Below are positions 54,242 to 59,234 of a DNA stretch of 64,000 nt, piece after piece. Position 1 is the first letter of the stretch; each line of letters opens with the position of its first letter. The stretch covers positions 62,001 through 126,000 of the forward strand of contig JAPOWQ010000041.1 of assembly GCA_026707585.1 (NCBI GenBank), given 5' to 3'. Below the pieces are notes generated by a model. That model worked only from the letters and a program-made list of their open reading frames with translations, searched no databases and was not told where the DNA came from. Source of the DNA: Chloroflexota bacterium. GTDB taxonomy: Bacteria > Chloroflexota > UBA11872. A program made the translations under genes and the position numbers.

Positions 54242-55927
<1,686 letters not shown>

Positions 55928-55936
55928 GGCGGCTCG

Positions 55937-56239
55937 CTAGCTGATGATGGCGAGGACGTCGCGCTCGCTGACGATCAGGTAGTCCTCGTCGTCCAAGCGC
56001 AACTCGGTTCCGGCGTACTTGGCGTAGAGAACCTTGTCGCCTTCCTTGATTTCCAGCGGAATCGTCGTGCCCTCGTCGTTCACTCGACCGGACCCAACAG
56101 CCAGCACGGTGCCTTCCTGCGGCTTTTCCTTCGCCGTGTCGGGCAACACCAATCCGCTCGCGGTGGTGGTTTCTCGGTCTTCCGGCTGAATCAGCACGCG
56201 GTCGCCCAGCGGCTTGACCTTGGTCGCAACCGTGGCCAT
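55937..56239 (-). CDS. groES: Co-chaperonin GroES
   Basis: 100 residues. [81 protein letters not shown] covers the mobile loop and the roof. It caps the GroEL ring. It starts behind GGAGGAG and is followed after nine bases by groEL. The 230-base divergent region 56240-56469 should hold its promoter; no HAIR or CIRCE motif is visible in it. Confidence 0.95.
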
Positions 56240-56469: not shown

Positions 56470-57705
56470 GTGATCGCTACGCATGACTCGACCACCCCGC
56501 CCACCCCCTTCCACCTGCTCATTCGCGGCGGCACCGTCATCGATCCGCAAGCGGGGCCTCCGCATACGGCCGACGTTGGCGTCAAGGACGGCCGCATCGC
56601 GGCCGTTGGCCCGGACTTGCGCGGGGACGCCGACGAAATTGTCGACGCCCGTGGCGCTTACGTCGTGCCCGGCCTCGTCGACTTTCACGTTCACGTGTAC
56701 TGGGGCGCGACGATCTGGGGCCTGGAGGCTGACAAGATCGGCGCCGCCGGCGGAACCACCGCGTTCCTCGACACCGGTAGCGCCGGCGCCACCACCCTGG
56801 CGGGACTGCGCCGCTATGTGATCGAGCCCTCACAAACCCGCATCCGCGCGCTTGTGCACATCTGTACCGCCGGACTCGTGACAACTCTGGGCGAACTGCG
56901 CGACCCGCGCTACCTGGACGTTGATGGCACCGTCCGTGCAATTGATCAGAATCGGGACATCGCGCCGGGCGTCAAGATTCGGTACTCCGACACGATCGTC
57001 GGCCAGGGCGACCAGGCCAGGGCCGCGCTCGACGCGGCCATCGAGGCCGCGGCACAGGCCGGCGTCTGGCTGATGGTGCATATCGGCTTCACGCCGGAAC
57101 CCATCCCGGACATCCTGGGTCGCCTTCGGCCCGGCGATGTCATCACCCACAGCTACACCCCCTTGGCCGGCGGGCTGGTGGACCTGAGCGCCCGACAAAT
57201 GCTGCCGGCCGTGATCGCGGCACGGGACGCCGGCATCGAGTTCGACATCGGCCACGGCAAGAGCAGTTTTGGCTGGCACACGGCCCAGGCCGCCCTGGAC
57301 TCGGGCTTCCCCCCGGACTACATCAGTTCGGACCTGCACCGCGGCTGCGTGCACGGCCCCGCCTTCAGCCTCCCCAATGTGATGACCAAGTTCTGGCTGC
57401 TGGGGATGCCCCTGGAAGAGATCGTCGCGCGCTGCACCATCGCGCCGGCCAGCAAGCTCGGCCTCGACGCCGGCACCCTGCGCGTCGGCGCTGAGGCTGA
57501 CATCGCGGTACTGGCGGTTGACGAAGGTCCGGTCACGCTGGTTGATTGCACGGGCGAGAAACGAACCTGGGACCGCCAGTTGCGGGCCGCCCACACCTTC
57601 CGCGCTGGGGTTCGCTTGGATCCCAAGGTGCTTGGACCCTCGGAGGAGTTGCCGGTCGAACTCTCGTCGCGCCCGATGACAAGCAGTTCCGGCAATTCAA
57701 CCTAG
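56470..57705 (+). CDS. Amidohydrolase-superfamily enzyme (dihydroorotase/deacetylase-like)
   Basis: 411 residues from GTG 56470. LLIRGGTVIDPQAGPPHTADVGVKDGRIAAVG and GLVDFHVHVYWG (HxH metal ligands) start the barrel. GVKIRYSDTIVG supplies the likely bridging lysine, followed by LMVHIGFTPEP, DVITHSYTP and SSDLHRG. The end is the usual composite domain (LRVGAEADIAVLAVDEG). It belongs to the metallo-dependent deacetylase-like group; the substrate is unknown. The selenoprotein candidate follows 56 bases later. Confidence 0.83.
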   Translation: MIATHDSTTPPTPFHLLIRGGTVIDPQAGPPHTADVGVKDGRIAAVGPDLRGDADEIVDARGAYVVPGLVDFHVHVYWGATIWGLEADKIGAAGGTTAFLDTGSAGATTLAGLRRYVIEPSQTRIRALVHICTAGLVTTLGELRDPRYLDVDGTVRAIDQNRDIAPGVKIRYSDTIVGQGDQARAALDAAIEAAAQAGVWLMVHIGFTPEPIPDILGRLRPGDVITHSYTPLAGGLVDLSARQMLPAVIAARDAGIEFDIGHGKSSFGWHTAQAALDSGFPPDYISSDLHRGCVHGPAFSLPNVMTKFWLLGMPLEEIVARCTIAPASKLGLDAGTLRVGAEADIAVLAVDEGPVTLVDCTGEKRTWDRQLRAAHTFRAGVRLDPKVLGPSEELPVELSSRPMTSSSGNST

Positions 57706-57761
57706 ATCCTGCTCACACCGGCGCGCCGTGCCAGACTGGCCAAACCGCGATTGGAGCGCAC

Positions 57762-59234
57762 ATGTCAACGCAGCCACCGATCCCCGCGCCGGAGTTTCCC
57801 GCAGGACTGGAATGGGCCAATACGCGGCGGCCGGTTCGCATGGCGGACCTGCAGGGCCGGCTGGTGATCCTGGACTTCTGGACGTTCTGCTGAATTAACT
57901 GCCTGCAGCTATTTCCGCAGTTGCGGAAACTCGAGGAAAAGCACGGTCCGGCGCTGGCGGTGGTGGGAGTGCACACGCCGAAGTTCCCGGCGGAGCGCGA
58001 GACGTTCAACGTGCGCTACGCGGCGCGGCGGCACCGCCTGGAGCACCCGGTCGTGAACGACCGGGATTTCCAGATCTGGCAGACGTACGGGGTGCGGGCG
58101 TGGCCGACGATGGTGTTTGTGGATCCGCTGGGGCACGTGATCGGGTTTCATTCGGGCGAGGCGCCATTCGAGGCGCTGGACCGGGCCGTGACGCGCATCC
58201 TGAACGAGCATCGGCCGAACGGCGTGGTGACGGACGCGCCGCTGGACGTGATGGAACAGGCGCCGGACTCGGACACGGGGCTGGCGTTTCCAGGGAAGGT
58301 GCTGGCGACCGCGGACCGCCTGTTCATTGCGGATTCGGGGCATCACCGGGTTATCGAAACGGACCACGACGGCGCGGTGCGGCGGGTGTTTGGGTCGTCG
58401 GAGGAGGGGCATCGAGACGGAGCGGCCTCCGATGCGCGGTTTACGTATCCGCAGGGGGTGGCGGTGGTTGGCGACGACTTATATGTGGCCGATACGGAGA
58501 ACCATCGGATTCGGCGGATAGACCTTGGGTCGGGCGGGGTGTCGACGGTGGCGGGAACGGGGGCGCGCGGGTATCCGGCGCCGGGGTCGCATCCGGCGCT
58601 GGCGGCGGAGCTGGCCTCGCCGTGGGACCTGGCGTGGCACGAGGGGCGGCTGTTCATTGCGATGGCGGGGATGCACCAGGTGTGGGTGATGGATCCGCCG
58701 GACGGGGTGGTTGGGCCGTATGCGGGGTCGGGGATCGAGAACCTGCAGGACGGGCCGCTGGACACGGCGCAGCTGGCGCAACCGAGCGGGCTGGCGGTGC
58801 ACGGCGACCGGCTGCTGGTGGCGGATAGCGAAACGAGCGCGATTCGAACGCTGCCGCTGGACGGGCGCGGAGACGCGCGGACGATTGCGGGGGTTGGATT
58901 GTTCGACTTCGGGGATGAGGACGGGCAGGGGACATCGATTCGACTTCAGCACCCGTTGGGGGTGGCGGCGGGGACCGAGGGCGTGTTTATCGCGGATACG
59001 TACAACAACAAGATCAAGGTGGTGGATCCGGTCCAGCGGCTGATCACGTCGTTTGCCGGGGATACGGAGCACGGGGATGCGGACGGCGGGCTGGCAGAGG
59101 CGCGGTTTCATGAGCCGGGCGGGGTGTCGCTGGCGGACGGGGTGTTGTTTGTGGCGGATACGAACAATCACGTGGTGCGGCGGGTGGAGTTGGCTGCCCA
59201 GACCGTCAGCACGGTGGAGTTGAGCGGCCTCTAG
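57762..59234 (+). CDS. Thioredoxin-like/NHL-repeat protein, probable selenoprotein (TGA = Sec44)
   Basis: One frame of 490 residues from ATG 57762, interrupted only by TGA at 57891-57893. Before it the protein reads RLVILDFWTFC, after it INCLQLFPQLRKLEEKHG. Related thioredoxin/NHL (NHLRC2-like) proteins have DFWTxCCINC here, so TGA replaces the first Cys of the C-x2-C redox pair, giving C43-U44-I-N-C47. The frame continues intact for about 1340 bases: thioredoxin fold (VVGVHTPKFPAE, VRAWPTMVFVDPLGHVIG) to about 165, then NHL blades (ADSGHHRVIETDHDG, VADTENHRIRRIDLGSGGVSTVAGTG, VADTNNHVVRRVEL). A SECIS-like hairpin follows the TGA. A mutation or sequencing error is the alternative. Confidence 0.8.
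57912..57929 (+). promoter_or_regulatory. Bacterial SECIS-like hairpin downstream of the in-frame TGA
   Basis: TTTCCGC (57912-57918) and GCGGAAA (57923-57929) form a perfect seven-pair stem with loop AGTT (57919-57922). The loop begins 25 bases after the TGA and contains the GU expected in a SelB-binding apical loop; bacterial SECIS loops lie some 16-37 bases after the codon. An alternative AACTGC/GCAGTT pairing (57897-57902 with 57917-57922) competes with it. Confidence 0.7.

Follow-up and report, generated by a model that had tools for sequence, protein, structure and literature searches.

The window analysed here, a stretch of 64,000 nucleotides from a Chloroflexota bacterium, carries a reading frame that begins at an ATG, contains a single TGA (codon 44) and is otherwise open to a TAG stop codon at 59232-59234 (Table 1). 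If the TGA is read as selenocysteine (Sec, U), the frame encodes a protein of 490 amino acids in which residues 39-47 are FWTFC-U-INC. An earlier note on this DNA had described FWTFC-TGA-INC followed by about 1340 intact bases; we count 1341 bases after the TGA, stop codon included, with no earlier stop among them. The note also expected automatic annotation to start the protein at 57921, and the output of an ORF finder does so, giving a product of 437 amino acids that begins at a TTG. Elsewhere in the window, inspection by eye identified a groES-groEL pair on the minus strand at 54242-56239 (with groEL called from a TTG by the ORF finder) and, upstream of the gene at 56470-57705, an amidohydrolase/dihydroorotase-like ORF that shows no sign of conserved adjacency to it.

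Table 1. Coordinates in the window of the gene and of its parts.
Feature	Position	Strand	Basis
Full selenoprotein gene, 490 aa with Sec44, NHLRC2/SOQ1-like, stop TAG	57762..59234	+	Frame translation, homologues, fold
GGAG, probable ribosome-binding site, 5 bases 5' of the ATG	57753..57756	+	Sequence reading (putative function)
Thioredoxin-like domain, residues ~7-155, TGA inside	57780..58226	+	Pfam Thioredoxin_8 and AhpC-TSA above cut-off; AlphaFold2 model
C43-U44-I45-N46-C47 motif (CCINC in Cys homologues)	57888..57902	+	Translation, alignment
In-frame TGA, read as selenocysteine 44	57891..57893	+	Translation, homologues
Bacterial SECIS-like hairpin, 7-bp stem UUUCCGC/GCGGAAA, loop AGUU	57912..57929	+	Folding, covariation
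Six-bladed NHL beta-propeller, residues ~174-488	58281..59225	+	Pfam NHL; model with six blades of four strands

Judged from its sequence and its modelled structure, the protein is a full-length bacterial orthologue of NHLRC2 and SOQ1, with the thioredoxin-like domain followed by a six-bladed NHL propeller that typifies this family. The AlphaFold2 model (mean pLDDT 95.3) has six propeller blades of four strands each and, in the thioredoxin-like domain, a strand at residues 34-40 and a helix at residues 45-64, with residue 44 lying directly before the first helix of the fold. In sequence searches the protein scored 371 bits against SOQ1 (7djj) and 346 bits against NHLRC2 (6gc1), and Foldseek gave TM scores of 0.95 to SOQ1 and 0.93 to NHLRC2 at 38-39% identity. 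Like human NHLRC2 (6gc1) and Arabidopsis SOQ1 (7djj/7djk), it has the same two domains over residues 7-488 and the CCINC motif at the same position. Unlike them, it has Sec in place of the second Cys of CCINC and, being only 490 amino acids long, lacks a C-terminal beta domain, an HAD domain and a transmembrane helix. The family motif CC(I/V)NC is thus present as C-U-I-N-C if Sec is counted as Cys; the Cys homologues have CCINC or sometimes GCINC. Our protein stops after the propeller, at residue 490, and a group of NHLRC2 homologues likewise lacks the C-terminal beta-stranded domain (PMC6107167), and this domain is therefore not required for the family. Because CCINC occupies residues 89-93 of human NHLRC2 (PMC6107167), U44 aligns with human Cys90. 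A related thioredoxin-like domain is found at the C-terminus of mycobacterial DipZ (2hyx, 5cyy; 83 bits), but that match covers residues 9-157 only, with no match to the NHL propeller, and DipZ has Cys rather than Sec, in the motif SCINC (PMC6107167). No NCBIfam model (June 2026) matched the protein above its cut-off. By eye, no signal peptide is evident and the protein looks cytoplasmic.

The existence of the 437-amino-acid ORF raises the alternative that translation truly stops at the TGA, and that the locus either makes a shorter NHL protein by restarting at TTG 57921 or is a decaying gene. Such a restart would, however, delete the strand, the motif and the start of the helix, and codons 1-43 form the first strands of a thioredoxin fold modelled with high confidence. 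Moreover, purifying selection acts on these codons as it does on the remainder of the gene: in comparisons among relatives that are 92-94% identical, dN/dS was 0.07-0.13 over codons 1-43 and 0.08-0.14 over codons 57-489, and not a single change was seen in the 12 codons that contain the downstream hairpin. (A dN/dS value of 1.12 3' of the TGA, obtained for the relative L032, was discarded as an artefact of an unaligned indel.) Frame decay, which the earlier note had named as a point against its reading, is thus not seen, with dN/dS near 0.1 both before and after the TGA. TTG 57921 itself is the invariant codon of Leu54 and lies within the loop and stem of the hairpin. Together with the retention of the TGA across the phylum (see below), these observations make a true stop very improbable.

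We compared the gene with its counterparts in other genome assemblies, many of which derive from metagenomes. The same TGA is present in 12 of the 12 genomes of the genus that have the gene, its own included (identities of 92-94%, and 77% for one), and no TGC or TGT, for which the earlier note had advised looking, replaces it at 57891-57893 in any of these. A search of 101 relatives also recovered the TGA in orthologues that belong to other orders and classes and are 46-55% identical, and at the level of the class it is present in 24 of 24 orthologues. A phylum sample of 400 genomes gave 80 matches, 57 with exactly one TGA, 20 with no stop and 3 to the propeller only; leaving out the last three, the TGA form accounts for 57 of the 77 informative genomes. 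(The position of the TGA at codon 44 and the bases following it were confirmed for 48 loci, and a further 13 genomes of the phylum search are included by their count of internal TGAs only.) Across many Chloroflexota families a stop at codon 44 is always TGA and never TAA or TAG. These comparisons of sequence indicate that the Sec form extends over much of Chloroflexota. One copy with both TGA and hairpin (L121) comes from a record labelled Actinomycetota, and a search of plasmids found no near relative.

The earlier note had placed the TGA at the first Cys of a CINC redox pair and had suggested looking for Cys/Sec pairs among homologues. Such pairs are found in a single alignment column, with TGA in 48 sequences and Cys in the other 79; in none of the 79 non-TGA homologues, which come from Planctomycetota, Acidobacteriota, Armatimonadota, Chloroflexota and other phyla, is the aligned residue Trp, Gly or anything else but Cys. 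Genomes derived from metagenomes can carry errors, and one might suppose that the TGA is an artefact of sequencing or assembly, or else a recently acquired nonsense mutation. The relatives refute this: the TGA recurs throughout the genus and in orthologues at 46-55% identity, next to a conserved, covarying hairpin, and we assign this explanation a vanishingly small probability.

In some bacteria UGA is reassigned, and it could be argued that the codon has another meaning here, or that a different tRNA, such as one for Trp or Gly, reads through it. This is ruled against by the uniform Cys of the homologues, and also by the genetic code and the genes of the host. Among 40 long ORFs of the window that do not overlap one another, 20 end in TGA, which is thus an ordinary stop here and has not been reassigned. 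The host genome (3.92 Mb in 75 contigs, 96% complete) contains selA (508 bits), selB (332 bits, cut-off 242), selD (370 bits) and a tRNA-Sec that scored 71 bits against its Rfam family and that ARAGORN calls as tRNA-SeC(tca), of 97 nt; all four genes that the earlier note proposed to search for are therefore present. With a tRNA of anticodon TCA and with selA and selB at hand, there is next to no likelihood of UGA being decoded as something other than Sec. The SelD of the host is of the Sec type and itself a selenoprotein (L010, about 1530): it has its own in-frame TGA in a GAG-U-ACKL motif, and a 7-bp hairpin, GGCGCAG-GUG-CUGCGCC, about 26 bases past that TGA. Among genomes with the TGA form of the NHLRC2-like gene, selB was above cut-off in 58 of 61 (27 of 29 and 31 of 32 in two sets); the three genomes without a match are 77-83% complete, and every near-complete TGA genome has selB. 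The use of Sec is common in these groups, as selB is also found in about two thirds (42 of 62) of the genomes with the Cys form.

Bacterial selenoprotein genes have a stem-loop just 3' of the UGA with a small apical loop that holds a G (PMC1088965), and a 7-bp stem with an AGUU loop is found here just 3' of the UGA. The perfect seven-pair hairpin with loop AGTT that the earlier note had placed 19 bases (start) and 25 bases (loop) past the TGA is borne out as TTTCCGC-AGTT-GCGGAAA, with gaps of 18 bases from TGA to stem and 25 from TGA to loop. Of the 1449 TGAs in the window, only seven (0.5%) have, at a suitable distance on their 3' side, a perfect hairpin of at least 7 bp with a G in the first two loop bases; this rate, combined with the recurrence of the arrangement in dozens of independent genomes, puts the TGA and its hairpin beyond chance. 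The AGUU hairpin is present in all 48 TGA copies of the codon-level alignment and absent from the 79 Cys copies. Codons 53-54, which supply the loop, are CAG-TTG in each of the 48, even though TTG makes up 10% of the Leu codons in these genes.

Among 28 representative distinct TGA sequences, 96.9% of stem cells are paired, and 17 cells, spread over four of the seven pairs, have changes on both sides of the stem, compared with 4.9 in shuffled controls (0 of 500 shuffles reached the observed number) and at most 10 in slid registers. Examples of compensated stems are CUUCCCC-AGUU-GGGGAAG (L037) and CUGGCGC-AGUU-GCGCCGG (L134). In the same register Cys homologues form on average 2.6 of the seven pairs, whereas Sec forms have 6.9, and the median fold energies are -3.7 and -10.9 kcal/mol, respectively. 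In dinucleotide shuffles of one sequence the z-score of the minimum free energy was unremarkable, between -0.9 and -1.8 depending on the stretch folded; because folding energy alone is not decisive, the case for the hairpin rests on conservation and covariation. Sec forms mostly have PQLR where Cys forms mostly have PDLK or PELK, and it seems that the hairpin dictates the protein sequence at this place. When run against the whole genome, a covariance model of the hairpin matched the site in the NHLRC2-like gene and nothing else, indicating that the other selenoproteins of this genome use different hairpins. (An Rfam search of the gene stretch returned chance matches only.)

In a careful maximum-likelihood tree of 48 representatives, made with residue 44 masked, all 22 Sec sequences fall in one branch (99/96 support) that includes only three Cys sequences, L036 and the pair L073/L084; branching order within this Sec clade is poorly resolved. 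(A fast tree had scattered some Cys rows among the Sec rows, and the careful tree cuts these to the three.) The simplest history would accordingly be a single gain of Sec followed by two apparent reversions to Cys. The three apparent revertants have lost the hairpin and kept traces of it in the protein (AQLR, PTLR). Outside the phylum of the window, in a genome of the same phylum as that of L121, an NHLRC2-like gene (L150; G484:C94:41662-41691) has a TGA at the same codon and a different downstream sequence without the AGUU hairpin; this genome has two copies of selB (370 and 308 bits). L150 may possibly represent an independent second gain of Sec with a different SECIS.

A related genus includes six genomes in which we found no full-length gene. 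Each has a short thioredoxin-like ORF (~200 amino acids) with one in-frame TGA (G025:C20:31826-32230, G027:C37:16757-17179, G029:C9:797171-797560, G031:C30:26412-26822, G033:C27:38048-38464 and G035:C337:12402-12818), likely a separate, stand-alone selenoprotein. Further thioredoxin-like frames of this genus have one or two TGAs and in some cases also a TAA (G031:C5:16207, G033:C30:128181, G029:C2:1054706, G025:C33:2024 and G027:C17:139524), and are selenoprotein candidates or mixed frames.

Taken together, the Cys/Sec column pairs, the covarying hairpin, the four sel genes and the lack of frame decay support the selenoprotein reading of the earlier note, and we are highly confident that the gene encodes a selenoprotein orthologue of NHLRC2 and SOQ1, with UGA44 decoded as Sec through SelB, tRNA-Sec and the AGUU hairpin, and with a redox centre at U44/C47. 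We infer both the incorporation of selenium and the redox chemistry at U44/C47, including its direction. SelB and tRNA-Sec would deliver Sec to UGA44 as directed by the 7-bp hairpin, and the U44-I-N-C47 pair would face the cleft between the thioredoxin-like and NHL domains as a selenol/thiol redox centre in which the selenolate of U44 attacks and C47 resolves. As substrate, a single specific protein or a small disulfide bound in the cleft would be most likely, more so than one that thioredoxins in general reduce. The family alignment shows no variation at residues 44 and 47, whereas several copies have Gly at residue 43; this points to U44/C47 as the likely redox pair and to the extra Cys43 as dispensable. 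The claim that Sec44 replaces the attacking Cys holds as regards its place at a Cys position of the CxxC motif, and the attacking role is probable.

A different reading of the selenoprotein, which we regard as improbable, is that Sec acts mainly as a selenium-dependent switch, such that the full-length protein is made only with selenium and the residue is non-catalytic. In its favour, insertion of Sec competes with termination. Human NHLRC2 was without activity in an insulin reduction assay, and the authors of that study concluded that thiol-disulfide exchange is probably not its function (PMC6107167). For the thioredoxin domain of SOQ1, redox activity "remains to be determined" (PMC10173003). 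Against a switch, Sec occupies the redox position that is best conserved in this fold, in a pair that does not vary, and the reversions go to Cys. For the catalytic reading, the presence of Sec at the position of human Cys90 suggests that this residue is the redox nucleophile, and argues for redox chemistry on a substrate narrower than those of the insulin assay. Extending this to the family, we lean towards a large and old Sec clade in which the residue at the Cys90 position would be the attacking nucleophile of the whole NHLRC2/SOQ1 family, acting on narrow substrates missed by the insulin assay, with Sec gained once in Chloroflexota, at least two reversions and maybe a second origin with a different hairpin (L150); we rate this as somewhat better than an even chance. 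Gene context offers no clue to the substrate, because the largest ORFs beside 12 TGA-bearing copies differ, by eye, from locus to locus; the context of bacterial NHLRC2 homologues elsewhere is likewise varied (PMC6107167).

No NHL-bearing selenoprotein is among the 119 prokaryotic families of a 2026 inventory (PMC13188914). The Sec thioredoxins and the TlpA-like, redoxin and Prx-like UxxC selenoproteins of that inventory share with our protein the thioredoxin fold, a UxxC motif, a bacterial SECIS and many Cys homologues, but none is listed with an NHL domain (the redoxin and Prx-like entries were compared by their descriptions in the inventory). In the open literature, subscription papers and preprints lying outside the scope, searches for NHL or NHLRC2 together with selenoprotein or selenocysteine gave nothing relevant, the earlier selenoproteome surveys consulted make no mention of an NHL/NHLRC2-type selenoprotein, and the selenoproteome papers searched do not mention Chloroflexota. 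Within that literature and the inventory, then, the earlier note was right that there is no established description of this family as a selenoprotein. As the Sec form of a known family, it counts by the usual reckoning as a new and, as a selenoprotein, well-supported family, with the redoxin and Prx-like UxxC entries compared by description.

The finding adds to the selenoproteins an architecture, a thioredoxin-like domain joined to an NHL propeller, that is common in Chloroflexota. Gene callers that treat TGA as a stop miss the active site of such proteins. The identity with NHLRC2/SOQ1, the span across Chloroflexota and the bearing on the disputed redox role of CCINC go beyond the earlier note. 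NHLRC2 is essential in mammals and is mutated in FINCA disease, and plant photoprotection is under the control of SOQ1. Of the three cysteines of CCINC, the one replaced by Sec would be marked as the nucleophile, which may offer a handle on the redox question in NHLRC2 and SOQ1.
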